From: Corylus avellana
Taxonomy: Eukaryota > Streptophyta > Magnoliopsida > Fagales > Betulaceae
Reading direction: 5' to 3'
NCBI RefSeq assembly: GCF_901000735.1
Contig: NC_081541.1
Span: 7,123,021 to 7,187,020 of the forward strand
DNA length: 64,000 bases
The translations under genes were made by a program, and so were the position numbers. The notes beneath the pieces are model-generated. The model made no database searches, was not told the origin of the DNA, and saw only the letters and a list, made by a program, of their open reading frames with translations. Numbering within the stretch: position 1 is the stretch's first letter; every line of letters begins with the position of its first letter. Positions 5,239-62,186 of this stretch are shown here, in pieces.

Positions 5239-5340
5239 ACCAGAATTCCCAATTCACCAGCAAAAACAAAGAACGCCACCAATGACTTGTCGCTCTAAAT
5301 TGAAATAATGTGTTTGAATAGACTCTTTCCTTATTTCTTC

Positions 5341-25364: not shown

Positions 25365-25448
25365 ACCAGAATTCCCAATTCACCAGCAAAAGCCAAAGAA
25401 CGCCACCAACAAGTTGTTGCTTGAATAATCTCTTTCCTTATTTCTTCA

Positions 25449-28447: not shown

Positions 28448-31400
28448 ATGGCTTCTGTCTTTCTGTTCGTTTTCTTTCTTCTCTCACATCTCCTGCTGCT
28501 TTTCTCCGCTGAAGCAGAAGTGAGATACACCAAAAAATGTCCACTCTTTCCCTGTGGAAATCTGAGCTCGATTGGCTTTCCATTCACCAAGGAGGAAAAC
28601 CCAGAATGCGGTGTTTTCACAATAGAGTGCCGGGATGATGCGTCTCCGATAATCAAACTGGAGGGTGGAAGGCAATATGAAGTTCTAAGTATCCATCCGG
28701 ATAACACCAACATACATATCAGAGAAGAATGGCTTGGGGAGCTGCACCCTGCAACCCCTGCTCCCGTTGAATGTGAATTCTTACATAATCTGACTTTTCC
28801 CAGCTCTTCGTTCATCTCTTTTGAATTTTCCCCCAACCAGACCTTTTTCAAATGCAAACACACCCTCGATATTTCTCCCCTTACAGATTTTAAAAATATG
28901 AGCTGCAATGGCGATAATATCTACTATAGTATTTCAAACCATAGTTTTCCCACTTCTCTCTCTGGATGTTCAATTATTCAGCTCCCAAAGAATCCGAACC
29001 CAGAGGAGTTTGGACTTTTAGCCGTTGAGTTCGACCTTAAACTGCATGTCCCTGATGCATGTTACAAATGTTATCAAAGAGGAGGTAACTGTAAGCCCGA
29101 CGACCAGGGGGAACTTTATTGTCTGGGTGCGGAGAAAGGTATAAACATAAGAATAACAACAATATTTGGGGATACACATATACATTCATTCATGAAAATG
29201 CATACAAATTTCTTTTTCCTTTTACGCTGAATTTATTCCTAACACGTGCTGCTCTATTTCTGTTCCATGCCATAATCCCCTCCTATAAAGCGATAGCTTT
29301 AGCTGATTTGGATGAGTGTCAAATTTAGATTATGAGTAATAGTAATAATTAACTCTGTTGCAATGAAACCCATTTCTCTCTTACTAACCCTGTTAGGGAT
29401 TCAATGGCTGCCAATTTAGCTGCTTCACTCATTCCTCATTGTTTAAACTAACATCTTTTATATATGTTTGTCTCTTCTGTGGCAGAGAATCACATAAAGC
29501 AACTGGAGATAGGATTAGGTGAGATACCTTTTCGATCAATTTTTTTTTTTTGGAAAAATGTTATACACACTCTCACTCTCACACTGTTAATTAGTACTTT
29601 CCTTAACATGACAGTGAAATCACCATTAGATTCAAAATTTAATAATCATACATCCAAAATTTATTGGTAATGAAATATGTTACGCTAGGGAGTATGCACT
29701 TTGGACTGTGAGAGTGAGAGTTTGTGTAACATTTCTCTTATTGTTGATATTAGTTGTTACGTTCATATTCTTTGTCGATATTATTCCATCCGGTGGTGAT
29801 CTATTGTATCTTCAACACAAAATTTCTTTCGAGGGTGTGGCTAATTATGAAATCTTTCGAAATGATATAGCTAGGGTTCTCCAAACAGTTTTCGTAATGA
29901 CTCAACTTTCTCCATTTTAATCGTTCTAAGGATGTATTATTTATGGAATCCATTGGAAGACTTCTAAACTTGTTCTCAAGTATTCAAACTTCCGTGATGA
30001 ATTTTTTTTTTTTTTTTTTCAAATTTTAAACCTGTAATACACAATTTTTCATACCTCATGATTTTCCTCCTTGTCTCCTTCTCTGGAATCAATACTTCTT
30101 CATGTCTTCTCTGGTGTCACTACAAGAAAATATTTAGGACCACACTCTCAAGAGGTAGTTTGAGTTAATTAGTCTCGTTTATGCACCACATAACTTCGTA
30201 ATGTGTACTCTTTGATTACAGCCACTTTATTTGCAGGAATTGGAGTTGTGATGGTTCTAATCTACTGCTTGATCAAGAGAAAGTTCTCATCCAGTCAAAT
30301 TATTTATTTTTGGAAAAAGAAAAGTTTAAACCATAAGACTGTCCATGACTTTCTAAGAAATCATGGACTTCTAATTACTATTAAAAGATACAGTTATTCA
30401 AATATCAAGAAAATGACCAACTTCTTGTTGATTTTTTATTTCTTTATTTTGGCTTAATTTCTTGTTGATATTATTCCATCTGAGGTGATCTATTATATCT
30501 TCAAAACATAAATTGCAACTCCTTTTTTACTCCTTCCGACGGTGTGCCTCATTTTTTCATGTAATGCTGTGCGGTTCCCCAATCAGTTTTAGTAATGGCT
30601 CCACTTTCTCCATTTTTATCATTCTTAAGGATGTACTATCTATAATCTATGGAATCCATTGGACGACTTCTAGAGTTGTTGTCAAGTATTCAAACTTCTG
30701 CGTTGATTTTTTTTTTTTCTTCGTTTGGACCTATAATAGGCAATTTTTCATTGTTCACGATTTCCCTCCGAGGCTCCCTCTCTCGGAATCAATTATTTTC
30801 TTGTTTGGTGTGACTACAATAAAATGTTTAGGATCACACTCTCAATGGGTGGTTCATGTTAGTCTTGTTTATGCACCACATAACTTCGTAATCTCTATTC
30901 CTTGATTACAGGCACTTTACCTATTGGAATTGGAGTTGAGATTGCTATAATTTGCTGTTTAAGGAGAGAGTTCTCATCCAATAGATTCATTTATTTTTGG
31001 AAGAAGGAAAGTTTAACCGATCAGACTATCCAGGCCTTTCTAGGGAACTATGGACCTCTTGCTGTTAGAAGATACCATTATTCAGATATCAAAAAAATGA
31101 CTAACCTTTTTAGAAATAAATTAGGTGTAGGGGGCTTTGGTAGTGTGTACAAGGGAAAGTTAAAAAAGATGAATGTCTTGTGGCAGTGAAGGTTTTGAAG
31201 GAATCTAGAGGTAATGGAGAGGAATTCATTAATGAGGTTGCAAGCATTAGTAGGACCTCTCATGTCAACATTGTCTCTCTTATGAGTTTTTGCTTTGAGG
31301 GTTCTAAAAGAGCCATCATCTATGAGTTTATGCCCAACGGATCTCTAGAGAAGTTCATATATAACAAAAGTCCTTCAAAGGTTGCTCGACGATTGGAATG

Positions 31401-32068
31401 GGAGACATTATACAACATTGCAATTGGCATTGCTCAAGGATTAGAGTACTTACATAGAGGTTGCAACACAAGGATCTTACATTTCGATATAAAGCCTCAC
31501 AATATTCTTTTGGATGAGAACTTCAACCCAAAGATTTCTGATTTTGGCCTTGCAAAAATATGCACAAGAGAAGAGAGTATTATATCAATGTTGGGTGCGA
31601 GAGGAACTGCGGGATATATAGCTCCAGAAGTATTTTGTAGAAATATTGGAGGGGTCTCGATCTCACAAGACAGATGTTTATAGCTACGGAATGATGGTTT
31701 TTGAAATTGTTGGAGGAAGAAGGAATATAGATGTCGAAATTGATCGTACCAGTGAAATATTTTTTCCGCATTGGATTTACAAGCGTCTTGAACAAAATGA
31801 AGATTTAGGACTACAGGGCCTTATGAATGAAGAGGATTACAAAAGTGCAAGGAAGATAATAATAGTCAGTTTGTGGTGCATACAGACTGACCCTTTAAGC
31901 CGGCCACCAATGAGCACAGTTGTGAATATGTTAGAAGGGAGTCTTGAACCCTTACAAGTACCACCCAAACCTTACCTGTCTTCACCATCACGATCACCGG
32001 AAGATTCTTCAGCAATAGTGTCAACACAGTGTGATTCTATAATGCCATCAAATGCATCTTTTCTTTAA
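28448..32068 (+). pseudogene. LRK10L-type receptor-like kinase, plus-strand copy, frameshifted
   Basis: Compact structure like the 46505-49673 gene. Exon 1 is 28448-29138 (230 codons plus one base; signal peptide, GUB_WAK domain, CYKC..GGNC motif; ends AAAG|GTATAA). The micro-exon is 29486-29518 (33 nt). The kinase region is damaged. A first exon start at 30222 breaks off near 30427 after the membrane and juxtamembrane part. About 480 bases of repeated intron follow, then a second, complete kinase exon start at 30912. That second exon has a frameshift in the A-run at 31162-31167 (two extra A or one missing) and a 4-base insertion near 31657-31660, which restores the frame to the stop at 32066-32068. 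Either lesion could be an assembly error, but the tandem exon start points to real rearrangement. The catalytic loop HFDIKPHN and DFG are present. Confidence 0.75.
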
Positions 32069-32089: not shown

Positions 32090-32656
32090 GTAGTAATTAG
32101 CATCTTTTGTAAACTGCATCAATGATTAGCCTTTTGATGCAAATGATAATTAAAGACATTACCATTTTAGATTCCCTTAACTATGAGATGATATCTGCCG
32201 TGATAGCTTCCTTCATGAATCTATAATATTGTGAGTCTATTTCAAAAAAAAAATATAATATTGTGAGTCATGGTAAATATATAACTACATACCCATTTTA
32301 AATTATGTTTGTATAATAATTTAAAACTAAGAGAAAAGGCCCACTACACAATCTCGGAGGCACTTCAAAGTAACCAGACTCTTCTTACTTGGTGAGACAA
32401 ACACCGCAATTGACTTTTGAAGCTAATTAGTTGAACTAATAGGAGCTCATTATAATTTGTGACCATTTTGCAAATTGATCTGAAAGTTCGTAATACTAGA
32501 TAATTAAATTTAATTAAAAAAATACTTGAATATTATAATTTTTATTACAAGTTCATATTACTGAATATTAAAATCTTATATTATTTAAATGAATTAAGGG
32601 GAAAAAAAAAAAGTTTTAAAGACTATAGATTTTATTTAAAAAGATATTACTTTCAA
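32090..32656. other. 3' flank of the plus-strand LRK10L copy
   Basis: Reverse complement of the conserved kinase 3' flank (as 303-860). No gene is seen. It ends in an assembly gap. Confidence 0.5.
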
Positions 32657-32756
32657 NNNNNNNNNNNNNNNNNNNNNNNNNNNNNNNNNNNNNNNNNNNN
32701 NNNNNNNNNNNNNNNNNNNNNNNNNNNNNNNNNNNNNNNNNNNNNNNNNNNNNNNN
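32657..32756. other. Assembly gap (100 N)
   Basis: Exactly 100 N. It removes the C-terminal lobe of the kinase exon at 32757-33421. Confidence 0.98.
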
Positions 32757-33421
32757 CTCTTCTCTTGTGCATATTTTTGCAAGACCAAAATCAGAAATTT
32801 TTGGGCTGAAGTTCTCATCCAAAAGAATATTGTGGGGCTTTATATCGAAATGTAAGATCCTTGTGCTGCAACCTCTATGTAAGTACTCTAATCCTCGAGC
32901 AATGCCAATTGCAATGTTGTATAATGTCTCCCATTCCAATCGTCGAGCAGACTTTGAAGGACTTTTGTTATATATGAACTTCTCTAGAGATCCGTTGGGC
33001 ATAAACTCATAGATGAGGGCTCTTTTAGAACCCTCAAAGCAAAAGCCCATAAGAGAGACAATGTTGACATGGGAGGTCCTACTAATGCTTGCAACCTCAT
33101 TAATGAATTCCTCTCCATTACCTCTAGATTCCTTCAAAACCTTCACTGCCACAAGACATCCATCTTTTAACTTTCCCTTGTAGACACCACCAAAGCCCCC
33201 TTCGCCTAATTTATCTCTAAAGAAGTTGGTTATTTTCTTGATATCTGAATAACTGTATCTTTTAATAGTAAGAGGTCCATGATTTCTTAGAAAGTCTTGG
33301 ACAGTCTTATGGTTTAGACTTTTCTTTTTCCAAAAATAAATAATTTGATTGGATGAGAACTTTCTCTTGATCAAGCAGTAGATTAGAACCATCACAACTC
33401 CAATTCCAGCAAATAAAGTGG
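32757..33421 (-). CDS. LRK10L-type kinase exon, partial (C-lobe lost in gap)
   Basis: The minus-strand exon begins at its 3' splice acceptor (ATTACAG before 33421) and reads without lesion through membrane segment, P-loop [12 protein letters not shown] lysine, HFDIKPHN catalytic loop and DFGLAK. It is then cut at the gap after KICTREE. The sequence is closest to the kinase of 46505-49673 (TATLFAGIG start). Intron homology upstream stops at about 33440, where a LINE fragment begins. It could be the third exon of the 36374-38855 ectodomain gene, separated by rearranged sequence and a gap. As assembled, that cannot be decided. Confidence 0.65.
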
Positions 33422-33444
33422 CTGTAATCAAAGAATAGACATTA

Positions 33445-34253
33445 ATAAGTTATGTCCAATTCCAGCCAATTTTGCCAACCAATGGGCTACTTCATTGCCA
33501 GATCTTTTCACATGTTGAACACTCCACATTCGACAGATCTCTAAGAGAATCTTAGCCTCATAATAAGGTGACTAAATTGTGCCCCACTATTTTCTTCACT
33601 ATGGAGAACCTGTACCACCGCAAGAGAGTCGCCTTCTAAAATGATGTCCGTGAGCCACAGCTGCCAAATAAGATCTGCTACTTTCCAAGCTGCTACTGCC
33701 TCAGCAATTTGAAGATCCTTTATGTAAGGTTTTAGAAAGCATTTGGCTACAATAACTTCTCCTTCATGGGTTTCGAAGACAATTCTTGCTGCCATCTTCC
33801 GTCCTCCTGCATCGACAACAACATCCCAATTACACTTTAGCATCCCTGTAGGTGGTGCCTTCCAGACTACTCGTGGTTTTGGTCCATACGTCTGCGTTGG
33901 TCGACGTATAGCTAGTTCCGCTTGTTCTGCTGCCTCCATCTAGTCCTTTGCTTGTTGAATCAACTTCATCGGTGAGGAAAGACACCTTCAAACACCATCA
34001 TATTCCTCCTCAGCCATATTTGCCTGACAACACACGCTACCAGGTTTATTTCATCCTCCTCCAGACGACCCAGCAGCTTCTCAAAAATGTTGAGAAAATC
34101 ATCATCTTCACTGGTTGTCTTCTGAATTCGTCTCATATAAGCTAACCAAACATCTTGTGATGCTGGGCAGCTCCACAAAGCATGCCCCATTGATACCACT
34201 TCAAGCTGGCATATTGGACATAAAGAGTCTGTCGTCACCTTTCGTTTGAACAA
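33445..34253 (-). mobile_element. LINE-derived fragment: zf-RVT plus RNase H-like domain
   Basis: On the minus strand a frame at 34253-33966 carries the reverse-transcriptase zinc-binding motif (CPICQLEVVSMGHALWSCP). A frame at 33939-33541 carries the plant RNase H-like (RVT_3) domain (WDVVVDAGGRK and LEGDSLAVVQVL). One frameshift near 33570 leads to its end (GNEVAHWLAKLAG). This is the order found at the 3' end of plant non-LTR retroelements. It is a truncated, dead fragment fused directly to LRK10L intron sequence on its 3' side. Confidence 0.75.
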
Positions 34254-41190: not shown

Positions 41191-42689
41191 AACTCACATC
41201 ATTATAGATTCATCATTCATGATGGAAGCCATCACAGCAGATATCATCCCATAGTTTAGGCAATCAAAGTTGGTAAAGTCTTTAAGTGTAATACGCATCC
41301 ACAAGCTAATCCTTGATGGAGTTCAAAAAAGATGCTAGTTACTACTCAACATTAAAATTTCCTTTAAAAGAAAATGATGCATTTTAGGGCATTATAGAAT
41401 CATATCACAGTGACACCGTTGTTGAAGAATCTTCTGGCGATCTCTTTGGCAAAGACAAGAAAGGCTTGGGCGGTACTTGCAAGGATTCGAGACTCCCTTC
41501 CAATAAATTCATAACTTTACTCATTGGTGGTTGGCTTGAAGAGTCAGTCTGTATGCACCACAAACTAACTATTATCTTCTTTCTTGCACTTTCATGATCA
41601 TCTTCATTTAGAAGGTTCTGCAGTCTTAGATCTTCATCTTGTTCAAGACGCATGTAAATCTAATGTGGAAAAAATATTTCACTGGTACGATCAATCTCCG
41701 CATCTATATTCCTTCTTCCCTCAACCATTTCAAAAATCATCATTTCGTAACTATAAACATTTGACTTGTGAGAAACCCTTCCAAAACTTCTACAACATAC
41801 TTCTGGAGCTATATATCATGCGGTCCTTCTCTCACCCAACATTGTTATGATACTCTTTTCTCTATGGCATATTTTTGCAAGACCAAAATTAGAAACCTTT
41901 GGGCAGAAAGTCTCATCCAAAACAATATTGTGAGGCTTTATATCAAAATGCAAGATTTTTGTGTTGCAACCTCTATGTAAGTACTCTAATCTTCTAGCAA
42001 TGCAAAGTGCAATGTTGTATAATGTGTCCCATTTCAATCGATGATCAACATTGGAGGAACTTTTGTTATATATGAACTTGTCGAGAGATCTGTTAGGCAC
42101 AAACCCATAGATGAGTGCTCTTTTAGAACCCTCAAAGCAAAAGCCCATAAGAGAGACAATGTTGACATGGAATGTCCTACTAATGCTTGCAACCTCGTTA
42201 ATGAATTCCTCTTCGTTACCCCTTGATTCTTTCAAAACCTTCACTGCCACAAGATGTCCATCTTTTAACTTTCCCTTATAGACACTTCCATAACCCCCTT
42301 CACCTAATTTATCTCTAAAGAAGTTGATCATTTTCTTGATATCTAAATAACTGTATCTTCTAAAAGTAAGAGATCCTTGGTTCCTTAAAAAGGCTTGGAT
42401 AACTTGATGGGTTAAATTTTCCTTCTTTGAAGAATAAATGAAGCGTATTACAACCATCACGAGTCCAATTCCAGCAAATAAAGTGGCTGTATTAATCAAG
42501 GAATAGATATTACGAAGAGTTATGTGGTGAGTAAAGGTCCGTTTGAGTTTGTAATTTGAAAAAGTGTGATTTAAAAATGTGAGATTTAAAAATGTGATTT
42601 TTAAAAATACAACTAAGCGTTTAGCCCTTAAAATCGCAGTTTAGCATTTAAAATCTTGCATTTTCAAATCGCAATTTTTTAAAAACGTA

Positions 42690-44229
42690 GGCTCTGTTTA
42701 TTTCGACGTAAAATGGTTTCCTTCGTAAAATATTTTCAGGAAAGCCATTTTCCCTGAAAATATTTTCCGTCCAAAACATTTTATGGCGTTTACCTTGCAC
42801 ACGGAAAATAATTTTTTTTAATATCTTTTTTTTTATATATATATATTTTTTCCAATAAGGTCCCCGCAAGGAACAACATGGGACTTGTTCGAGACACCGT
42901 AGGGACCTGCCCGAGACCCAGCGGAACTTAACCGGGACCTCACCGGGACTTGACCGGGACCTGCCCAGGACTTGACTGGGACCCGCACAGGACTTGACTG
43001 GGACCTGACCGGGACTTGCTCGGGACCTACCCAAGACTTGACTGAGACCTTACTGGGACTTGACCAGAACTCGCCCGGGACCCTCTCGAGACTTGACCGG
43101 AACCCGCCCAGGACCCGCCAAGACTTGACCGGGACCCGCCCAGGACTTGCTCGGGACCTCGTCGGGACCTGCTCGGGACCCCCACGAGACTTGACCGGAA
43201 CCCACCCGGGACCCAACCAGGCAAGTCACGGGCAGGTCTTGGGCAAGTCCGGTCATGTCTCGGGCGTGTCCCGACAAGGTCCCAAACAAGTCCTGGGCGG
43301 GTCTCAGTCAAGTCCCGGGCAGGTTCGGTCAAGTCCCGGGAAGATCCCGGTCAAGTCCTGGGTGGGTCCCGATCAGGTCCCGCTGGGGTCCGGGGCAAGT
43401 CTTGGGCGGGTCTCGGTCAAGTCCAGGGCGGGTTCTGGTCAAGTCTCGAGCAGGTCCCGAGCGGGTCCCGGTCAAATCTCAGGCAGGTCCCGGGCAAGTC
43501 CCTGGCAGGTCCCTCTGGGGTCCCGAACAAGTCCCAGGCGGGTCCTAGTCAAGTCTAGAGCAGGTCCTGGTCAAGTCTCGGGTAGGTCCCGGTCAAGTCC
43601 CGAGCGAGTCCCGGGCAAGTCCCAGTTAGGTCCTGGGCGGGTCCCGGTCAAGTTCAGGGAGGGTCCCGGTCAGGTCCCGAGCAAGTCCAGGGCAGGTCCC
43701 GATCAAGTCTCGAGGGGGTCCCAGGCAAGTCCTAGTTAGGTCCTCGTCAAGTCCCGAATGGGTCCCGGGCAGGTCCCGGGCGGGTGTTTGTCAAGTCCCG
43801 GGAGGGTCTTAGTCAGGTCCCGATCAAGTATTGGGTAGGTCCCGGTCAAGTACTGAGCGGGTCCCGGGCATGTCCCGGGCGGGTCCTGGTCAAGTCCCGG
43901 TCAGGTCCTGGGCAAGTCTTGGGCGAGTCCTGGGCTGGTCTCGGTCAAGTCCCGGTTAGGTCCCGAGCGGGTCCAGGGCAAGTCCCGGTTAGGTCCCGGG
44001 CGGGTCCCGGTCGATTCTTGGCAAGGTCCATCGATTTAAGAATAAGATGCTCATAGTCGGAAAATGGTTTACGGTTTTCAAAACCGTAAACCATTTTCCT
44101 AAAATTAAAGAAGAATTTTCGGTCAAAAGGAAAATATTTTCTGTTGACCACTATTTTACATTGAAGTAAACACCGTAAAATATGGAAATCATTTTTTGAA
44201 AACCATTTTACGTCGAAGTAAACGGAGCC
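42690..44229. mobile_element. Foldback-like element with minisatellite arms, nested
   Basis: The ends are inverted repeats of about 30 bp: GGCTCTGTTTATTTCGACGT at the left, and the complement of the right end GGCTCCGTTTACTTCGACGT. GTA occurs on both outer sides (42687-42689, 44230-44232). The interior is a GC-rich tandem array of 11-bp units that switches orientation, so the whole element can fold on itself. There is no transposase. The organisation is like foldback elements; the superfamily is uncertain. Confidence 0.7.
42880..44030. repeat. 11-bp minisatellite, inverted at about 43210
   Basis: About 100 units of RGTCCCGGKCR. From about 42880 to 43210 the units read as the complement (GGGACTTGACC); from about 43216 to 44030 they read forward (GGTCCCGGTCA). 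Because 11 is not a multiple of 3, all frames stay open, giving spurious Gly/Pro/Arg/Ser-rich frames on both strands. Confidence 0.85.
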
Positions 44230-44616: not shown

Positions 44617-45287
44617 CTATAACTGTTGAAGCCCCACTGGCAGGTGAAATACTACTGAAATAGCAGAGCCAGAGGGTACAGAAGCAGGGGTGATAGCCGT
44701 AGCCTCTTGGGTGACCAACTGCGGGGTCCCTTTGGCCATCAAATTCTCTTCCTGAAAGTCGTGTAGCATCGGGTAGCCTTGTGTGCTCACTGCCCAACCC
44801 ACCTGCCAAACCAGGTTTACCTTCTCCGTGTTCACCGGCAGCTTCCATTTCCCGAAGATCTTGATGGTCCCGTTGGAGTCCTCGGTGCAATGTCCCACAC
44901 CTCGTAAACCAGCTTCGCACTCGACTCGCTTAAAATGTAGGAGCGGATTTTGTAGGTCTGGATGGTCATGAGGCCGTTGGATTGGAAGGCCAGCAGCGCT
45001 TGGGACCCACTCATGCCGGTCCCACTGGGGTTGATGGCCCACGCCACCCAGCCCTGGGGCTTGGCCGGCGGAGCCACGAAGGCCATCGACAGAGACGAAT
45101 TGGACGCGTTGTAGCTCCAGTGAAGGCACGCGCTCAGATGCGGGAGATCGGCGCAGTTGGGGTACACTTCCACCTCCTTGTTTGTGAACTTCTGCCAATT
45201 GCAGTTCAGAGACTCACCCAGTGCGACCAGCAGAGCCACTGCTAAGATCCCCACAACTGCTCCACATGTACAACAACGCCTACCCAT
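44617..45287 (-). pseudogene. AIR12-like DOMON protein, frameshifted
   Basis: Starts at ATG 45285-45287 with MGRRCCTCGAVVG, a signal peptide of about 25 residues, then a DOMON domain with the family pattern (NCNWQKF, SGSQALLAF and LVYEVWDIA). A 1-base deletion at about 44884 breaks the frame. The domain continues in the next frame (EDSNGTIKIFGKWKLP, then VNLVWQVGWAV) to a stop at 44617-44619. AIR12 proteins are single-DOMON, haem-binding, GPI-anchored proteins acting in apoplastic redox and auxin responses. No clear GPI tail is visible here. It could be a functional gene with one sequencing error, but the second copy at 1-302 is also broken. It lies on the 3' side of the 46505-49673 receptor kinase. 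Confidence 0.7.
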
Positions 45288-46504
45288 TGTGTTCAATCTA
45301 ACAGAAAGAGATCCAATTCCAGGAATTATTTTGGTTTTGGAGGTGGAGCATATATATATAGTAAGGATCCTCATGCTTCCACGGTAAATCATGTAACTAA
45401 TTACAGTAGCCATGCCCTTTCTTCTCTCGAAAATCGATAAGTTGAAGTTGATGTCTCCAAGGTATAGTCAATCGGTAATGAATCAAGCTTTATGAAATAA
45501 GGGTTACTAGTTTAAATTTTCATTCTTTTATGTGAACATATCAAAAATAAATAAATAAATAAATAAATAAATTGAAGTTGATAGAAAGATTACATTTAAT
45601 TATGGTAAAATGCCAAGAGAAGACTTCCATTTCTTTTTTTTTTTTGGTTTGTGTTGTTCTTGCCCATTGAGGGCTCAAAATCATAGTTTATGATAAATTA
45701 ATCAATTTATAATATAATTAAGATAATTAAATCTAGTTATCAAATCAATTTCAACCCTAGAGATGAGAAATTATTCCACGTCCAGTAGCTTTTATTTGTT
45801 TCCCTACGTAGCAGGAAAAATAAAAAATAAAAAAATAACATTTAGGGCTCCAAACGTTATTTCGTCAATTAGCTAGTTGTACAAGAAACAAGAATACAAT
45901 AGATTCCTGTGGACCTACTAATCTAAAATGCAGCACTGCCTGTTTTCTTTTGAAAGTAACATCTTTTTAAATAAAATCTATAGTCTTTAAATAATATAAG
46001 ATTTTAATATTCAGTAATATGAACTTGTAATAAAAATTATAATATTCAAGCATTTTTTTAATTAAATTTAATTATCTAGTATTACGAACTTTCAGATCAA
46101 TTTGCAAAATGGTTACAAATTATAATGAGCTCCTATTAGTTCGACTAAGCTCCAGAAGTCAATTGCGGTGTTTGTCTCACCAAGTAAGAAGAGTCTGGTT
46201 ACTTTGAAGTGCTTCTATGATTGTGTAGTGAGCATTTCCTCTTAATTTTAAATTATTATACAAACATAATTTATAATGGGTATGTGGTTATATATTTACC
46301 AGGACTCACAGCATTATAGATTCATGAAAGAAGCTATCATAGAAGATATCACCCCATAATTAAGGCAATCAAAAATGGTAATGTCTTTAATTCTAATTCG
46401 CATCAACAAGCTAATCATTGATGCAGTTCACAAAGGATGTTAGTTACCACTCTTAACATTAAAATTTCCTCTCTTCCAAAAAAGAAAAACATTAAAATTT
46501 CCTT
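45288..46504. other. Intergenic 3' flank of LRK10L copy 5
   Basis: No gene is seen. 45650-46500 matches 19850-20990. An (ATAA)n tract lies at about 45545-45571. Confidence 0.5.
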
Positions 46505-49500
46505 TTAAAGAAAAGATGCATTTGAAGGCATTATAGAATCACATTGTGTTGACACCATTGTTGAAGAATCTTCCGGTGATCGTGATGGCGAAGACAAGTA
46601 AGGCTTAGGTGGTACTTGTAAGGATTCAAGACTCCCTTCTAACATATTCACAACTTTGCTCATTGGTGGCCGGCTTAAAGGGTCAGTCTGTATACACCAC
46701 AAACTCACTATTATCATCTTCCTTGCACTTTTGTAATCATCTTCATTCATAAGGCCCTGCAGTCCTAGATCTTCATTTTTTTCAAGACGCTTGTAAATCC
46801 AATGCGGAAAAAATATTTCACTGGTACGGTCAATCTCAACATTTATATTCCTTTTTCCTCCAACAATTTCAAAAACCATCATTCCGTAACTATAAACATC
46901 TGCTTTGTGAGAGACACCTCCAAAATTTCTACAAAATACTTCCGGAGCGATGTATCCCGCAGTTCCTCTCGCACCCAACATTGATATAATACTCTCTTCT
47001 CTTGTGCATATTTTTGCAAGCCCAAAATCAGAAATTTTTGGGCTGAAGTTCTCATCCAAAAGAATATTGTGAGGCTTTATATCGAAATGTAAGATCCTTG
47101 TGCTGCAACCTCTATGTAAGTACTCTAATCCTCGAGCAATGCCAATTGCAACGTTGTATAATGTCTCCCATTCCAATCGTCGAGCAAACTTTGAAGGACT
47201 TTTGTTATATATGAACTTTTCTAGAGATCCGTTGGGCATAAACTCATAGATGACGGCTCTTTTAGAACCCTCAAAGCAAAAGCCCATAAGAGAGACAATG
47301 TTGACATGGGAGGTCCTACTAATGCTTGCAACCTCATTAATGAATTCCTCTCCATTACCTCTAGATTCCTTCAAAACCTTCACTGCCACAAGACATCCAT
47401 CTTTTAACTTTCCCTTGTAGACACCACCAAAGCCCCCTTCGCCTAATTTATCTCTAAAGAAGTTGGTCATTTTCTTGATATCTGAATAACTGTATCTTTT
47501 AATAGTAAGAGGTCCATGATTTCTTAGAAAGTCTTGGACAGTCTTATGGTTTAGACTTTTCTTTTTCCAAAAATAAATAATTTGATTGGATGAGAACTTT
47601 CTCTTGATCAAGCAGTAGATTAGAACCATCACAACTCCAATTCCAGCAAATAAAGTGGCTGTAATCAAAGAATAGACATTAATAAGTTATGTGGTGCATA
47701 AACGAGACTAATTAACTCAAACTACCCCTTGAGAGTGTGATCCTAAATATTTTCTTGTAGTGACACCAGAGAAGACATGAAGAAGTATTGATTGCCAGAG
47801 AAGGAGACTAGGAGGAAAATCATGAGGTATGAAAAATTGTGTATTACAGGTCTAAAATTAAAAAAATGCAACACGGAAGTTTGAATAGAACTTGAGAACA
47901 AGTTTAGAAGTCTTCCAATGGATATAATACATTCTTAGAACGATTAAAATGGAGAAAGTGGAGTCATTATGAAAACTGTTTGGAGAACCTTATATCATTG
48001 CGAAAGATTCATAATTAGCCACACCCTCGGAAGAAATTATGTGTTGAAGATACAATAGATCACCACTAGATGGAATAATATCGACAAAGAATATGAACGT
48101 GACAACAAATATCCACAAGAAGAGAAATGTTACACAAACTCTTACTTTCACAGTCCAAAGTGCACATATACTCCCTGGCATAACATATATATATATATAA
48201 CTTATGGATGAGACTGGAAATTCGTGAGACTGAAAAATTTTCTATTGAAGGTCACAATAGAACTTATGCATGCAACACAGAAGTATGAAAAATTGACCTC
48301 TTCAGTACAAGTCTGGTGATAGGATCCTAATCATTCACTGTTTGCATGGCAGATAGAGAAGTTGCCGTTTCATGAAAATAACAAAATTAGTGCCCTAAAG
48401 CTTTGATAACTAGCCATACGCAGTGAAGGGGAAAATACTTAGATGTGATGAGTAACATAATATTACTTTAATATGGAATAATTTGAATCCCATAGGCTGT
48501 CCAATCACAAGTGAATATCAATTTTCAACAAGAAATTTGATTGAAGAGGTATCTCACCTAGTCCTATCGCCAGTACTGGCCTTGTGTGACTCTCTGCAAC
48601 AGACGAGACAAACATAAAAGATCGATGTTAGTTTAAACAAAGAGGAATGAAGTGAAGCAGCTAAATTGGCAGCCTTTGAATCCCTTAACAAGGTTAGCAA
48701 GCAAGAAATGTCAAAACCAGATCATATGTATCCGATATGGGTTTCATTGCAACAGAGTTATTACTTTTACTCATAATCTAAATTTGACACTCATCCAAAT
48801 CAGCTCTATCCCTTTATAGGAGGGGATTATGGCATGGAACAGAAATAGAGCAACGCGTGTTAGGAATAAATACAACGTAGAAGGAAAAAGAAATTTGTAT
48901 GCATTTTCATGAATGAATGTATATGTGTATCCCCAAATATTGTTGTTAATTCTCATGTTTATACCTTTCTCCGCACCACAATCAAGTTCCCCCTTGTCGT
49001 CGGGCTGACAATGACCTCCTCTTTGATAACAACTGTAACATGCATCAGAGACATGCGGTTTAAGGTCGAACTCAACGGCTAAAAGTCCAAACGGGTTATC
49101 ATCAACTGCCAGAGGATCTGGGTTCGGATTCTTTGGGAGCTGAATAATTGAACATTCAGAGAGAGAAGTGGGAAAACTATCGCTTGAACCATTATAGTAG
49201 ATAACATCTTCAGAGCAAGGAATACTTTCAAAGTTTATTGGGGGAGAAATATTGAGAGTGCGTTTGCATTTAAAAAAGGTCTGCTTGGGGGAAAATTCAA
49301 AAGAGATGAACGAAGAGCTGGTAATAGTCAGATTGGTTAAGGATTCGCATGCAAAGGATGCAGGGGCTGCAGGGTGCAGCCCCCCAAGCCATTCGTCTCT
49401 GATATGTATGGTGGTGTTATCCGGAAGGATACTTAGAACTTCATATTGTCTTCCACCCTCCAGTTTGATTATCGGAGACGCATCATCCCGGCACTCTATT

Positions 49501-53038: not shown

Positions 53039-55649
53039 TTAGGGCATTACAGAATCATATTGGAGTGACCCCATTATCGTCGAAGAATCTTCTGGTGATC
53101 TTGATGGCGAAGACAAGAAAGGCTTGGATGGTACTTGTAAGGATTCGAGACTCCCTTCTAGCATATTCACAACTCTACTCATTGATGGCCGACTTGAAGG
53201 GTCAGTTTGTATGCACCACAAACTCACTATTATCATCTTCTTTGCACATTCTTGATCATTTTCATTTATAAGGCCCTGCAGTCCTAGATCTTCATCTTGC
53301 TCAAGACGCTTGTAAATCCAATGCGGAAAAAATATTTCACTGGTACGATCAATCTCGGCATCTATATTCCTTCTTCCCCCAACCATTTCAAAAACCATCA
53401 TTCCGTAGCTATAAACATCTGACTTGTGAGAGACCCCTCCAAAATTTCTACAATAGACTTCTGGAGCTATATATCCTGCAGTCCCTCTCGCACCCAACAT
53501 TGATATAACACTCTTTTCTCGATGACATATTTTTGCAAGGCCAAAATCAGGAATCTTTGGGCAAAAGTTCTCATCCAAAAGAATGTTGTGAGGCTTTATG
53601 TCAAAATGCACGATTCGTGTGTTGCAACCCCTATGTAAATATTCTAATCCTCGAGCAATGCCTAGTGCAATATCGTATAATGTCATCCATTCCAATCGAC
53701 GGTCAACCATTGATGGATTTTCTTTATATATGAACTTCTCTAGAGATCCGTTAGGCATAAACTCGTACATTAGAGCTCTTTTAGAACCCTCAAAGCAAAA
53801 GCCCTTAAGAGAGACAATGTTGATATGAGAGGTTTCACTAATGCTTACAACCTCGTTAATGAATTCTTCTCCATTACCTCTCGATTCTTTGAGAACCTTT
53901 ACTGCCACAAGACATCCATCTTGTAACTTTCCTTTGTAGACACCACCATAGCCTCCTTCACCTAATTTATCTTTAAAGAAATTGGTCACTTTCTTGATAT
54001 CTGAATAACTATATCTTCTAATGGCAAGAGGTCTATAATTCCTTAAAAAGGTTTGGACAGTTTGATGGGCTGGACTTTTCTTCTTCCAAAAATAAATAAT
54101 TTGATTGGATGAGAACTTTCCCCCTGAAGCAGCATATTACAAGTACGATCACAACTCCAATTCCAGCAAATAAAGTAGCTATACCAGCAATCATACCGGG
54201 GGAGATGGAAGTACCACCCGACGTTGTTACGACCGGACTCCCACTAGGCGTTGTGCCATTCGAACTCGAGGATGTTCTTCCTCCATTTCCAGAGCTCGTC
54301 GTAGTCCTCACAAGCAACGGATTGCCGGTCGCATTGATCTTCACCGTCGATGTGAATTTGGGTATCGGCCCAGTAAGGTTATTGTTCGAAACGTCAAGAA
54401 GCTGCAGGTCCGGCAAGGTGGCCAAGCTATCCGGTATGGAACCGGTCAAATTATTGTCACTTAGAAACAAACTCCTCAACGATGTGAGATTCGCAATGGC
54501 TGGAGAGATCGTCCCCACAAAACCCAGTGTCCCGAAATTCACGATGGTAATCTTCTTCTGCGAATATTCGCAGGTAATGAAACTCCAATTGCACGCGTAG
54601 TTGCCTTGCCAGGAACTGGCTAGCTTGATCGGGTACCCCAACACCGCTGCGACCTCGAGCAATATTGTCACTTGCGAATCACAAGGCCCCGAGGTGGTCT
54701 TGCAGTAGCTATTGGTACCCTCATTGGCCGTGGTCACAGAGGACGGGAACGCCGGGAAAGGACCTTGGAGCTCATTGTTAGACAAAGAAATGTACTGCAA
54801 GCTGGGAAGTGACATCAATGAGTCTGGGACGAGGCCAGTGAACTGGTTGTCGAAGAGCTGAAGATCGAACAAGCTTGTGCATTTCGACAAATCTGGGATC
54901 GGACCTGTGAACTGGTTCTCATGCAGCCATACCTGTTCCAACCGGGTCATCGAAGACAACACGTCGATGGTACCCGACAAGCCATTTTGCTGGTGGTTGA
55001 GCCAGAGGTTCTGAATCCCAGATCCTCCCAGAGATTTAGGCAAATGGCCAGTGAGATTGTTGTATGAAAGCCGGAGATCCTTGAGACTCGCGAAGGAGTC
55101 GAAGATATCGGGTAAGGACCCAGCCACATTCGCACTGCCGGCGTAGAGGGCGACCAGTCTAGTGGCCTGAGTCAACTCGGTAGGGATAGTCCAGGGTGCA
55201 AGATTAAAGTTCCGACTCAAGGTCAAGGTCTGTAGGCTGGTGAGTCCTTGGAAGAAGCCGTCGGGGATGGAGGTGAAATTGTTGTTGTCAAGGTAGAGTT
55301 GTTGGAGCGAGGAGAGGTTGGCGAGGGAGGGTAGGGGCCCAGAGAAGGAGTTCTTTTGGAGGGAGAGAGATGTGAGCTGGGTGAGAGAGCCGAGATTGGA
55401 GGGAAGAGTCCCCGATAGACTCTGGGAAGCCAAGTTGATGGAGGTGACACGACTGTTTTCGCTGCAATTCACGTTTTTCCACTGACAGTGGGCTGTGCTG
55501 GCGGACCAACCGCTTGGGGCTTGGCTGAAGGCGGCGAGGAGCTCGGACATGACCGCGGCGTCATCAGCGGCAGTGAAGGATGAAAGAGCGAGGAGAGAGA
55601 GAGAGATAATGAAGTTAGAGAGACAAAGAAGGGTTCTCGAGTAACCCAT
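53039..55649 (-). pseudogene. Chimeric receptor kinase 1: TMK-type LRR ectodomain fused to LRK10L-type kinase, one frameshift
   Basis: The minus-strand frame from ATG 55649 encodes a signal peptide (about 1-27), an LRRNT cap, a first LRR block, the non-LRR cysteine island and second LRR block typical of TMK receptors (auxin/ABP1-linked family), and a Ser/Gly/Thr-rich stalk. SPGMIAGI then passes directly into LRK10L-type TLFAGIGVV. After CCFR a run of five C at 54120-54124 (plus strand) has one base more than the sister gene and shifts the frame. The kinase continues in the next frame to 53039 with P-loop [23 protein letters not shown] (preceded by Pro), APE and the Ser-rich tail. There is no intron between LRR and kinase. 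If the frameshift is an assembly error, the product would be about 865 aa. The LRR part is visibly GC-richer than the kinase part. Confidence 0.75.
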
Positions 55650-57724: not shown

Positions 57725-60160
57725 TGGTAAACAAGAAAAGAGAGCTCCTTCTACTAGTATGTAGTGTAAAACTTTTTTTTTATAGCATTTACTAGAAATT
57801 TGACAAACCAGGTAAAAATATTAAATACAGTGAATATAAAAACATCGTATCTTTAATTCAAATCAATTTTATGGACTTTTTCTTTTGTTCGAACCCAACA
57901 CTTACCACTCACTTCCGAGCCATCAATACCGGAGTCTTCAAAACCAACTAAGATGGTGGCTCTGATGGTTTTATCCATGAATATTTTATCTCTGAAGCAT
58001 TTTGTCAAGAGAATAAAAATTATTTGGTATCAAGGGTTAATTATATATATATTTTTTTTTTGTATTTCAAGTTGAAGTTCCTATTGAATGGTACAAAACA
58101 CCAAGTTTATACCATGACTTAATTAATTGAAGTTATTCAAAAAATTTATTTTATTAATATTCAGATGAAAATTTGGGTTTATAGGCTGATAATGAATTTA
58201 AATGCCACATCATTTTTAAGAGGAATGGGAGATAAGAAGGGATAGGAATCTTGCAATATATATATAACATTACTAATTTTTTATTATTTGGGAAATATTA
58301 TAATTTTTTTGTAATTTGAAAGTAACATGTAATTTTTAATTTTGAAAAGAGATTATAAATTGGATGTTAATTTGAACGAGTATACTGTTTTCCAAATAAG
58401 ACTGAAATAATGAAGATCTCCACTAGCTGCCTCCCACTCTATATGCACGTTGACGTGGAAAATTTGCTCAAATTAAGACTTGCGAAAACAGACCGGAAAC
58501 AATGAGGAAGTACTCCTTCACTGAGTCATCTTTTTCAATTGGTCAGCCAACGAGGGAGTTTCATCCCCACCTTCCCCTCAGACCTGACCACCCAGTAGAC
58601 AGTCGTCTAAGGAAAACTAGCAGCTAATATTTTTAGACGGTGTTTTTGTTATTTATTTATTTATTTTTGATGCGATATAAAAGTGAGTATTTTTGTGTGT
58701 TTTATAAGTGTTTTGACGTTGTTGTTTGTTAATATTCTTGGCCAAAAAAAAAAAACAGTTTTAAAAAGGATTAATAAACGGCATCTAGAGGTTGCAAGAA
58801 GACTACTGCAAAAGTTTGCTGCTTGCTTGAAACGTTTTTATTGTGTTTATTTTTATTTGATATTGTCTTTATATTAATCCATATAAGAGTCTCGATCACT
58901 CATCAGCCTTAGTTTATATTTCAATAAGAGTCGATGCTCAGCCCTAAAAAATATTTAATTTGCCTACTTAAAGGTCATTATGTTACGAATAAAAAGAACA
59001 TAAAATTATTTCAAACCTTGAGTTTGAAAATATTTTACTTTTCCTTCAACAAATCTAAAGGGTTCGCTTAAAATCTAACCATCTATCCCAAGCAAGGGTA
59101 TTGTAATCCTCTGGCAATAGCAATGCAATACGGAGGTACCTATGTTTCCCACCACAATGAACTTGTGTCTTCAGGGTAATATTTTCTTATATGAACTACT
59201 CGCTCGCTTCAAAATCAATTCTTCCAGTAACTAATTCAGTTCACTCTCTTTCTTTCTTTGGGTTAAATTGTGCATGTCCAAAACAATTGTTGCTGTTTTG
59301 TCACATGGTGTCAGCTATTAGTTGCAATTGTAAGGGGGTTTTTTTTTTAAAAAAAATTAAAATATTTAGCATTAATAGAGGCAGCCCATTAAAGTGGGGT
59401 GTCTTCCTACGTCACATGCATCTTACTAATAGGATATTGCGAAGGATGAAGGTTATCATAAAGACTGACGATTTGCTTGAAAAATATAGGATTTTCATAG
59501 TAAAGCCATAAATCGGATGTACTGACTGGCTTCTCATGCCGGCAGTACCCCCTCCCCCTGCATAGCATCTCATTGCAGAAGTCTGGAGCTTCTGCTGTAT
59601 GCACCGTCTTAGTGTAGGATTAAAGTCTGATTCTGGCAGCAGGGACAGGAATGGAGACACAATCAAATCAAGGTAGAAATTTGGCAACGCCCGTATTAAT
59701 TTATTTATCTCCTTATTTGGCCAAAAATGAAAAGAAAAAAGAACAAAAAAAATTTACTCTGTTTCGAATGCATTCTTTTCAGCTAATAGAGCAGCAAGCC
59801 TTGACGCTTTACCTATAATTTCTTCAGATTCTGTAGTGAGTTCCAAATAGCTCAGCTATGCTTTAGTATGGGCATTTACATAATAAAGACTATTGAAAAT
59901 TGATCCAACTCACAACATTATAAATTCATGATGAAAGCTATCATGGCAGATATCATTCCACAGTTTAGGTAATCGAGATAATAGTTAAGTAAGTGTAATA
60001 CACATCCACAAGCTAATAATTAATACAATGCTACTTACTACTCAAACACTAGAATTTCCATTTAAAGAAAAGATGCATTTTAGGGCATTATGGAATCATA
60101 CTGCAGTGAACTCATTGTTGTTGAAGAATCTTTTGACAATCTTGATGGCAAAGACAGGAA
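57725..60160. other. Intergenic: segmental duplicate of the 15-17.6 kb region
   Basis: 58395-58830 matches 15080-15350 and 59430-60160 matches 16120-17600 without the retroelement insertion. 57725-58380 is AT-rich with nothing recognised. No gene is seen. Short frames near 59407-59687 lie in the duplicated flank and have no recognised domain. Confidence 0.5.
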
Positions 60161-60161
60161 A

Positions 60162-62186
60162 TTAAGGCTTGGGTGGTACTTGTAAGGATTCGAGACTCCC
60201 TTCCAACATATTTATAACTTTACTAATTGGTGGTCGGCTTGAAGGGTCAGTTTGTATGCACCACAAACTCACTATTATCATTTTTTTTGCACATTCTTGA
60301 TCATTTTCATTTATAAGGCCCTCCAGTCCTAGATCCTCATCTTGCTCAAGACACTTGTAAATCAAGTGCGGAAAAAATATTTCACTGGTACAATCAGTAT
60401 TCTCGATATCTGTATTCCTTTTTCCCCTAACCATTTCAAAAACCATCATTCCGTAACTATAAACATCTGACTTGTGAGAGACCCCTCCAAAATTTTTGTA
60501 ATATACTTCCGGAGCTATATATCCTGCAGATCCTCTAGTACCCGACATTGATATGCTACTCTTTTCTCGAGGGCATATTTTTGCAAGGCCAAAATCAGAA
60601 ATCTTTGGGCAAAAGTTCTCATCCAAAAGAATGTTGTGAGGCTTTATATCAAAATGCACGATTCGTGTGTTGCAACCCCTATGTAAATATTCTAATCCTC
60701 GAGCAATGCCTAGTGCAATCTCATATAATGCCATCCATTCCAATCCACGGTCAACCATTGATGGATTTTCTTTATGTATGAACTTCTCTAGAGATCCGTT
60801 AGGCATAAACTCGTACATTAGAGCTCTTTTAGAACCTTCAAAGCAAAAGCCCATAAGAGAGACAATGTTGATATGAGAGGTCTTACTAATGCTTTCAACC
60901 TCGTTAATGAATTCTTCTCCATCAGTACCTCTCGATTCTTTGAGAATCTTTACAGCCACAAGACATCCATCTTGTAACTTTCCCTTGTAGACACCACCAT
61001 AACCTCCTTCACCTAATTTATCCCTAAAAAAGTTGGTTATTTTCTTGATATCTGAATAACTATATCTTCTAAAAGCAAGAGGTCTATGATTCCTTAAAAA
61101 GGTTTGGACAGTTTGATGGGTTGGACTTTTCTTCTTCCAAAAAAAAATAATTTTATTGGACAAGAACTTTCTCCTGAAGCAGCATATTACAACTATCACA
61201 ACTCCAATTGCAGCAGATAAAGTAACTATAGCAGCAATCATACCGGGGGAGACGGAAGTTTCACCCGACGCTGTTCCTCCTCCATTTCCAGAGCTCGGAG
61301 TAGTCCTCCCAAGCAACGGATTGCCGGCAGCATTGAACGTGACCGTCGATGTGAATTTCGGTATCGACCCAGTAAGGTTATTGTTCGAAACGTCAAGAAG
61401 CTGCAGGTCCGGCAAGGTGGCCAAGCTATCCGGTATGGAACCGGTCAAATTATTGTCATTTAGATACACCTGTTTCAACTGGGTCATAGAAGACAACACG
61501 TCGATGGTACCCGACAAGCCATTTTTCTGGTTGTCGAGCCAGAGGATCTGAATTCCAGATCCTCCAAAAGATTTAGGCAAAGGGCCAGCGAAATTGTTGA
61601 ACGAAAGCTGGAGATCCTTCAGGCTCAGGAAGGAGTCGAAGATATCTGGTAAGGACCCAACCACATTCGCATTGCTGGCGTAGAGGGTGGCCAGGCTAGT
61701 GGCCTGAGTCAACTCGGTGGGGATAGTCCAGGGTGCAAGATTCGAGTTTTGACTCAAGATCAAGGTCTGGAGGCTGGTGAGTCCTTGGAAGAAGCCGTCG
61801 GGGATGGAGGAGAAATTGTTGTTGTCAAGGTAGAGTTGTTGGAGCGAGGAGAGGTTGGCAAGGGAGGGTAGGGGCCCATAGAAGGAGTTCCCTTGGAGAG
61901 AGAGAGAGGTGAGCTGGGTGAGAGAGCCGAGATTGGAGGGAAGAATCCCCGACAGATTCTTGGAAACCAAGTTGATGATGGTGACACGACTGTTGCCGTC
62001 GCAAGTCACGTTTTCCCACTCACAGTAGCTTGTGCTGGCGGACCAGCCGCTTGGAGTTGGGCTGACGGCGGTGAGGAGCTCGGACATGACCGCGGCGTCA
62101 TCAGCGGTGGTGAAGGATGAAAGAGCGAGGAGAGAGAGAGAGATAATGAAGGTAGAGAGACAAAGAAGGGTGCTGGAGTAACCCAT
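60162..62186 (-). CDS. Chimeric receptor kinase 2: TMK-type LRR ectodomain fused to LRK10L-type kinase, intact
   Basis: Single uninterrupted 674-codon frame. A signal peptide spans about 1-27, followed by the LRRNT cap (Cys55, Cys62), LRRs (about 70-275), a Ser/Gly-rich stalk (295-312) and a membrane segment (about 316-336). The LRK10L-type juxtamembrane and kinase follow: P-loop GEGGYGGV 392-399, Lys413, HFD 511-513 (non-RD), DFG 531-533, APE 558-560. Against chimera 1 the ectodomain lacks about 154 residues (the cysteine island and several LRRs), rejoined cleanly within an LRR. The stop after PPKP removes the usual 25-30 residue Ser-rich tail but leaves the kinase complete. The protein should sit in the plasma membrane with an extracellular LRR. 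Classical TMK kinases have a different catalytic loop, so this is not simply a TMK gene. The intronless fusion is seen directly; function is unknown. Confidence 0.88.
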   Translation of the reverse strand: MGYSSTLLCLSTFIISLSLLALSSFTTADDAAVMSELLTAVSPTPSGWSASTSYCEWENVTCDGNSRVTIINLVSKNLSGILPSNLGSLTQLTSLSLQGNSFYGPLPSLANLSSLQQLYLDNNNFSSIPDGFFQGLTSLQTLILSQNSNLAPWTIPTELTQATSLATLYASNANVVGSLPDIFDSFLSLKDLQLSFNNFAGPLPKSFGGSGIQILWLDNQKNGLSGTIDVLSSMTQLKQVYLNDNNLTGSIPDSLATLPDLQLLDVSNNNLTGSIPKFTSTVTFNAAGNPLLGRTTPSSGNGGGTASGETSVSPGMIAAIVTLSAAIGVVIVVICCFRRKFLSNKIIFFWKKKSPTHQTVQTFLRNHRPLAFRRYSYSDIKKITNFFRDKLGEGGYGGVYKGKLQDGCLVAVKILKESRGTDGEEFINEVESISKTSHINIVSLMGFCFEGSKRALMYEFMPNGSLEKFIHKENPSMVDRGLEWMALYEIALGIARGLEYLHRGCNTRIVHFDIKPHNILLDENFCPKISDFGLAKICPREKSSISMSGTRGSAGYIAPEVYYKNFGGVSHKSDVYSYGMMVFEMVRGKRNTDIENTDCTSEIFFPHLIYKCLEQDEDLGLEGLINENDQECAKKMIIVSLWCIQTDPSSRPPISKVINMLEGSLESLQVPPKP

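Follow-up and report, generated by a model that had tools for sequence, protein, structure and literature searches.

A TMK4-type leucine-rich repeat ectodomain joined to an LRK10L-type kinase in a tandem pair of hazel genes, and the same pairing in other plant families

INTRODUCTION

How did a single open reading frame (ORF) in the hazel Corylus avellana come to carry the leucine-rich repeat (LRR) ectodomain of one receptor family in front of the kinase of another, and would its product be a receptor or a remnant? The frame, here called gene A (protein P0001), lies in a stretch of 64,000 nucleotides (contig NC_081541.1, positions 7,123,021 to 7,187,020 of the forward strand), which we call the window and which holds a cluster of LRK10L genes. 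A first-pass annotation, made from the letters of the window, had described gene A as one frame that passes from a TMK-type LRR ectodomain into the membrane segment and the non-RD kinase (that is, one without the arginine-aspartate motif in its catalytic loop) of the LRK10L family, and the 674-codon ORF, the Pfam domains, the BLAST identities and the trees all agree with that description. The locus had also been given as a single gene, and in this the annotation missed gene B, a second copy with the same joint 7 kb away.

Our reading, to which we assign a probability of roughly 0.7, is that genes A and B are tandem copies of one TMK4/LRK10L fusion made at the predicted last acceptor of an LRK10L gene, and that the product would be a surface receptor with TMK4-type LRR sensing and non-RD signalling. 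The two genes share their architecture and joint and form a tandem pair, both of their halves belong among Betulaceae genes, and a common origin of the pair with the chimeras of other plant families is rejected. The following sections describe the frame, its joint and its sister copy, then the chimeras of other plants and the number of times they arose, and finally what the hazel genes might do, if anything.

THE FRAME OF GENE A

The features of gene A are as follows.

60162..62186, minus strand: gene A, full chimera frame, ORF of 674 amino acids
61227..62186, minus strand: ectodomain derived from TMK4, with the start of the membrane segment (residues 1-320)
61464..61465, minus strand: point of the 462-bp gap relative to gene B, the exact base depending on the alignment
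61225..61226, minus strand: fusion joint, TATAG opposite the TACAG of the predicted LRK10L acceptor, from the DNA alignment
61176..61241, minus strand: transmembrane segment (residues 316-337; predicted helix 316-340)
60210..61022, minus strand: protein kinase domain of LRK10L type (residues 389-659)
60633..60656, minus strand: catalytic loop HFDIKPHN, non-RD
60065..60172, minus strand: LRK10L C-terminal tail, outside the frame of gene A

The 674 codons run from ATG to stop with zero internal stops, and Pfam reports LRRs followed by Pkinase. The same search found neither GUB_WAK_bind nor WAK_assoc in P0001 or in P0002, the protein of gene B, domains that do occur in the neighbouring LRK10L first-exon frames. 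The ectodomain has matches in the crystal chains of TMK1 (4hq1) and TMK3 (7brc), and it is 69% identical to the first 301 residues of P0055, a canonical Corylus TMK4. The kinase, which keeps its motifs and is non-RD, shares 80% identity with an LRK10L copy nearby (46505-47629) vs 33% with the TMK4 kinase; on these figures and on its place in the kinase tree, inside Betulaceae LRK10L, a TMK origin of the kinase half, the outcome that the first-pass annotation had named as refuting its idea, is rejected.

The annotation had further called the chimera intact, which is right insofar as the frame is open; it is not right for the ectodomain or for the C-terminus. Relative to gene B, gene A has lost 462 bp, or 154 ectodomain codons, which include the TMK island described below. 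The loss is in frame and keeps the LRR register; the gap sits between two LRR units, and part of the second LRR block went with it. At the other end the protein stops at PPKP, and the usual LRK10L tail lies out of frame. A structure predicted from a 47-row alignment shows the shortened ectodomain as one solenoid, with block-mean predicted local distance difference test (pLDDT) values of at least 90 over residues 31-290 and a fold that is continuous across the gap point; the mean pLDDT of the whole protein is 81.4. When this model was searched with Foldseek the top ten matches were kinases, and TMK1 and TMK3, matched through the ectodomain, came at ranks 11 and 19.

THE FUSION JOINT

The first-pass annotation had put the junction at residue 315, at the point where LRK10L genes have their last intron acceptor. 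The joint does lie at the predicted acceptor, and its position moves by a few residues: the DNA alignment places the joint at codons 320/321 (61226/61225), where TMK similarity stops and LRK10L similarity starts. In the seven aligned LRK10L copies, TACAG (TGCAG in one) stands right before the shared stretch and marks the predicted last acceptor, as in CCACTTTATTTGCTGGAATTGG. Gene A reads GCTGCTATAG, then TTACTTTATCTGCTGCAATTGG, and gene B reads GCTGGTATAG, then CTACTTTATTTGCTGGAATTGG. The hazel frame continues through the predicted acceptor site, and the predicted last LRK10L intron is absent there. A retrocopy, or splicing at a donor within the TMK sequence, is not favoured, because the joint retains TATAG. 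The TMK4 donor was probably not a neighbour of the LRK10L cluster, since P0055 lies on another contig and the 64-kb window is without a TMK-type kinase, a TMK4 kinase query matching in it only LRK10L-type copies at low identity.

GENE B AND THE TANDEM PAIR

Gene B is made up of the following parts.

53039..55649, minus strand: gene B, tandem sister chimera with a one-base frameshift after the membrane segment
54180..55649, minus strand: full TMK4-type ectodomain (residues 1-490)
54570..54704, minus strand: TMK four-cysteine island, missing from gene A, located by pattern search
54178..54179, minus strand: fusion joint, in the same place as that of gene A
54120..54124, minus strand: run of G with a one-base shift of frame against gene A
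53039..54136, minus strand: LRK10L-type kinase frame

A hallmark of TMKs, according to the accessible part of PMC4030839, is a four-cysteine island between two LRR blocks, and its pattern, taken from the same source and searched with one spacing relaxed by one residue, is present in gene B, in P0055 and in P0008 and is absent from gene A. The ectodomain of gene B, which is TMK by sequence over its whole length, is 80-83% identical to that of P0055 (80% over 497 residues). P0008 is a fragment of 614 amino acids from an environmental source; its N- and C-terminal parts are missing, it has the same joint, and it is open throughout. Chance or an assembly error is an unlikely source of the chimera, because the joint is found again in gene B, at a distance of 7 kb, and, at the protein level, in P0008, which comes from another source. 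The offset between the two genes is about 7.0 kb and falls to 6.5 kb across the 462-bp deletion, and this gap and a further one of 48 bp are both multiples of three.

CHIMERAS IN OTHER PLANTS

Three protein searches, two of them with chimeras as queries, provided the wider sample. The best 120 matches of each, out of thousands, gave 252 proteins, some of them near-copies, which were classed by the family that scored best in BLAST for each half. Among these listed matches 59, gene A included, carry an LRK10L kinase under a TMK ectodomain; the number should be read neither as a frequency nor as a complete inventory. The others are 131 proteins with TMK ectodomain and TMK kinase, 53 with the LRK10L kinase only, four with the ectodomain only (P0002, from gene B, among them), four in which a TMK ectodomain stands on a third kinase (Caryophyllales) and one, from Bidens, with a different LRR ectodomain on an LRK10L kinase; the split of the 64 LRK-like rows into 59, 4 and 1 was made by hand from the score table. 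Gene A as a one-off is therefore rejected, since 59 of the 252 retrieved proteins share its architecture. To this extent the first-pass claim that no described receptor class has the combination needs amending, although the literature searches described below found no paper that names the pairing.

The 59 comprise 46 legume proteins, five from Cannabis, three from Humulus and one each from Parasponia, Pterospermum and Rutidosis, together with P0008 and gene A; the first 57 span nine genera of legumes and three of Cannabaceae besides Pterospermum and Rutidosis. Many of these records bear the annotation TMK4, TMK2 or TMK1, and the rest are hypothetical or otherwise named. The catalytic loop separates the two architectures: every readable loop of the chimeras (57 of 59) is non-RD and every readable loop of the canonical TMKs (119 of 131) is RD, the motif being unreadable in two of the former and 12 of the latter. 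Their joints, compared by eye, are not alike. In hazel the break lies within the TMK membrane segment, Parasponia P0012 has a TMK-like membrane and juxtamembrane stretch ahead of the LRK10L membrane segment, Gastrolobium P0019 seemingly joins two half-segments, and Silene P0167 has a TMK-like membrane segment ahead of its different kinase.

Some members of the sample deserve separate mention. In P0159, P0163, P0167 and P0195 (Chenopodium, Silene and Spinacia) a TMK4-type ectodomain stands on the third kinase, which is non-RD (HLDVKPQ/EN), is about 40-43% identical to LRK10L and 37-38% to TMK, and which may resemble the SD-2b kinases. The Bidens protein, P0090 (1013 amino acids), has an LRK10L kinase that is sister to that of the Rutidosis chimera (100/99), under an LRR ectodomain only 31% identical to TMK, so that kinases of this type may also join with LRR ectodomains of other kinds. 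The longest legume chimeras, P0017, P0024, P0026 and P0029 (Arachis and Stylosanthes, 1013-1051 amino acids), apparently have enlarged TMK-type ectodomains.

NUMBER OF ORIGINS

Separate trees of the two halves, a check proposed with the first-pass annotation, place the hazel ectodomain in Betulaceae TMK4 and the hazel kinase in Betulaceae LRK10L. The ectodomain tree has 84 rows (24 of the 59 chimeras plus gene B, three of the four Caryophyllales proteins and 56 of the 131 canonical TMKs), and the kinase tree has 64 (24 of the 59 chimeras, gene B, Bidens P0090, 35 of the 53 LRK10L-only proteins and three window frames), the rows being hand-picked with an eye to coverage and to spread over taxa. 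Which proteins count as chimeras was settled before the trees were made, with P0090 counted as one in the kinase tree, whereas the lineage pairs that were tested were picked after the trees had been seen.

In the ectodomain tree 62 of the 81 inner branches are starred, and the chimeras need six state changes, in either direction (gains or losses), all forced by starred branches. The chimeras of Betulaceae, Cannabaceae and Rutidosis each stand beside canonical TMK4 of their own family, those of legumes fall in two or three spots among legume TMK4, and Pterospermum (Malvales) falls beside Malpighiales (92/96, unstarred). Genes A and B and P0008 lie within the Betulaceae TMK4 clade with support of 100/100. 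Six state changes, again in either direction, are also needed in the kinase tree, where A, B and P0008 group at 100/98 as sister to the Corylus LRK10L P0070 (98/92), inside Betulaceae LRK10L.

A single clade of all chimeras is rejected by approximately unbiased (AU) tests for the ectodomain (log-likelihood difference 385, p 5e-93) and for the kinase (220, p 3e-7), and with it a single ancient fusion as a whole. Among the six lineages, Betulaceae with Cannabaceae is rejected on both halves, and on the kinase so is Betulaceae with legumes, Gastrolobium, Rutidosis or Pterospermum (p <5e-5 each); altogether 10 of the 11 kinase pairs tested are rejected, including Betulaceae with all five others. 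Of the 15 possible ectodomain pairs four were tested, with P0031 excluded from the legume set, and all were rejected, those of legumes with Gastrolobium (p 0.018) and with Pterospermum (p 0.026) weakly. Fusion and separate origins are well supported, best so for Betulaceae, and a conservative count from the trees would be five captures of an LRK10L kinase: in Betulaceae, in Cannabaceae, in Gastrolobium, in other legumes with or without Pterospermum, and in Rutidosis.

P0031, from Medicago, combines a kinase of the main legume chimera clade with an ectodomain that stands beside the canonical TMK4 of Canavalia, Cajanus and Vigna (90/73), which would fit a second replacement of its ectodomain.

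ALTERNATIVE EXPLANATIONS

Several observations weigh against our reading, and those that concern the number of origins are best taken together with the two alternatives that they touch. The ectodomain grouping of A, B and P0008 alone is weak (91/64). The kinase AU tests covered 11 of the 15 pairs, the remaining four being Rutidosis with legumes, with Gastrolobium and with Pterospermum, and Gastrolobium with Pterospermum; and the legume main clade paired with Pterospermum survives the kinase test (p 0.16). Sampling of solo LRK10L genes is thin, with none from Cannabaceae among the rows and two from legumes, so that the kinase evidence is thinner, and a separate origin less certain, outside Betulaceae. 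One could suppose instead that there was one ancient fusion, and that gene conversion by the TMK4 and LRK10L genes of each locality later replaced both of its halves. Clustered receptor genes are able to convert one another, the p of 0.16 would be in keeping with this, and P0031, with its main-legume-type kinase and an ectodomain next to canonical TMK4, is what one conversion would be expected to leave. However, most lineages would require overwriting of both halves, a single clade is rejected for each half, and the joints of hazel, Parasponia P0012 and Gastrolobium P0019 differ by eye, so that we regard this explanation as very improbable. Hardly more probable is the view that only the hazel pair is real and that, in other families, gene models have wrongly merged neighbours into chimeras. 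It is true that outside hazel the chimeras are known here from protein records, and that annotation fusions are common in other groups (PMC12964723, from the part of that paper available); but the Cannabis models have 850-852 amino acids in four protein entries, the 57 proteins are spread over the many genera named above, and most of the joints inspected, at the protein level and by eye, cross one single membrane-like stretch.

The more serious rival, to which we give a little under even odds, is that both hazel copies arose as by-products when a receptor cluster recombined and are now decaying without a function, gene A simply having stayed open so far; this would be compatible with the fusion history and would exclude only a working receptor. 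Gene B is frameshifted just past its membrane segment, although the shift in the run of G may be a sequencing error. Gene A, besides its 154 missing ectodomain codons, has lost its C-terminal tail through a frame break and deviates from the near-invariant T553 and W608. With gene B as reference it has 16 unique replacements in the kinase vs three in P0008, the closest relative of gene A (p 0.004), and eight vs one in the part of the ectodomain common to both (p 0.04), or 24 vs four with both halves pooled (p 0.0002). The ratio of nonsynonymous to synonymous change (dN/dS) between A and B is 0.79 in the ectodomain. Several neighbouring copies in the window are broken as well, and both local chimeras may be decaying. 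Set against this are the 674 open codons with their kinase motifs, the gaps of 462 and 48 bp that are divisible by three (though the tail went by a frame break), a dN/dS of 0.34 between the kinases of A and B, the P0008 fragment, which retains the island and is open over a length beyond which both ends lie, and the many open chimeras of other families. In a neutral simulation the frame stays open with probability 0.25 if the branch is a quarter of the A-B distance, 0.06 if it is half and 0.004 if it is the whole, so that constraint on the frame of gene A is not proven. The structural model, with a predicted template modelling score of 0.49, does not place the two halves relative to each other. 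Gene A, then, is open, was perhaps constrained earlier and is changing fast now; we see it as a shortened derivative whose ability to signal is doubtful.

PROPOSED ORIGIN AND FUNCTION

If the fusion reading is right, a TMK4 copy would have landed in the LRK10L cluster and the DNA joint would have formed at the short match TATAG/TACAG. Unequal crossing-over would then have created the A/B pair, and a later recombination between LRR units would have deleted the 462 bp from gene A. The product, if made, is predicted to have a signal peptide, an outer LRR solenoid, one membrane helix and an inner kinase (helix and folds from prediction), and would presumably be displayed at the plasma membrane. 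Non-RD kinases are frequent among immune receptors, and from this kinase type an immune-type output might be expected, as might the defence output that the first-pass annotation had proposed. In plant immune receptors, according to the available portion of PMC6637901, recognition depends mostly on the ectodomain, and how strong the response is depends on the inner part. The likeliest reading of the architecture is a receptor with a TMK4-like outer view and an immune-type inner output.

As to what might be sensed, TMK ectodomains bind ABL auxin-binding proteins, and auxin-dependent binding of ABP1/ABL has been reported for TMKs (review PMC12787603, in the part accessible). The suggestion in the first-pass annotation of a sensor related to apoplastic auxin is weak for gene A, because the island and 154 residues are gone, so that gene A probably no longer reads the same signal; it fits the ectodomain of gene B better. 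Island-bearing forms, such as the ectodomain of gene B and P0008, might share the partners of TMK4 or report molecules aimed at TMKs. It seems likely, judging from the family comparisons, that plants have repeatedly wired the TMK4 sensor to a different, probably immune-type, output. A bolder proposal, against which we judge the odds to lie, is that flowering plants have repeatedly and independently given the TMK4 ectodomain to kinases of non-RD, immune type, namely LRK10L-2 in five lineages or more and another non-RD kinase in Caryophyllales, and that the products would serve as surface integrated decoys, or as watchers of the auxin complex, which turn interference with TMK sensing into defence.

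RELATION TO KNOWN RECEPTORS

The chimera resembles the TMK family (subgroup IX of the LRR receptor-like kinases, LRR-RLKs; TMK4 type) in its signal peptide, cysteine pair, LRR solenoid and linker, and differs from it in the kinase and most of the membrane segment, which are not TMK, the kinase being non-RD, and, in gene A, in the lack of the island. With LRK10L-2 it shares the membrane segment, the kinase with its non-RD loop and the location in the cluster; unlike LRK10L-2, it has an LRR ectodomain in place of GUB_WAK_bind/WAK_assoc and has no separate last exon for membrane segment and kinase. The chimeras of legumes, Cannabaceae, Pterospermum and Rutidosis have the domain order and the two donor families of hazel's, yet differ in their separate origins in both trees, in their joints by eye and, in some legumes, in enlarged ectodomains. 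A maize LRR-RLK gene, described in the available part of PMC7318236 from one species, is truncated and had its kinase converted by another LRR-RLK. Its two receptor halves likewise go with different paralogues, whereas hazel has an LRR ectodomain on the kinase of a non-LRR receptor family, in a pairing that recurs across plant families.

A full-text literature search, with a 528-species domain survey outside its coverage, found, among the papers it listed, no description of a TMK ectodomain on an LRK10L kinase or of its repeated origin, and zero papers in it mention TMK4 together with LRK10L. Nor does the pairing appear in the accessible portions of PMC9469530, PMC10834447, PMC7318236, PMC10152718, PMC5380761, PMC12787603, PMC11152071, PMC4030839 and PMC11968617. 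Domain-shuffled LRR-RLKs are known already; the TMK4/LRK10L pairing and its recurrence are, in the literature searched, apparently new.

The capture of one ectodomain, convergently, by another kinase class amounts to a natural domain-swap experiment. If the products signal, one sensor would be wired within one plant both to growth (TMK4) and to an immune-type kinase (the chimera). If this is true, experiments could address what is sensed by TMK4 ectodomains, and whether receptors at the cell surface carry integrated decoys as the intracellular nucleotide-binding leucine-rich repeat receptors (NLRs) do. There is also a practical side, as a good number of database entries named TMK4 carry another kinase, by which family surveys and the transfer of function can be misled.

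OTHER FEATURES OF THE WINDOW

Nothing was found for a role of the locus in resistance to eastern filbert blight: in the accessible part of PMC11152071 the mapped region is on chromosome 8, and no LRK10L is counted there. The LRK10L kinase copies at 17604-18762, 41372-42475 and 32616-33449 on the minus strand and at 30884-32068 on the plus strand are interrupted, be it by breaks of frame, by an internal stop or by a stretch of N, and decay seems common in this cluster. Between LRK10L copies, at 44832-45413 on the minus strand, lies a frame with a DUF568 domain, presumably auxin-induced and AIR12-like. A G+C-rich minisatellite with units of 11/22 bp occupies 42902-44010, and the long frames that overlie it on both strands are probably spurious. 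The LRK10L last-exon and first-exon frames at 864-5253 are repeated at 20994-25379, at a distance of about 20.13 kb, which marks a segmental tandem duplication within the cluster.
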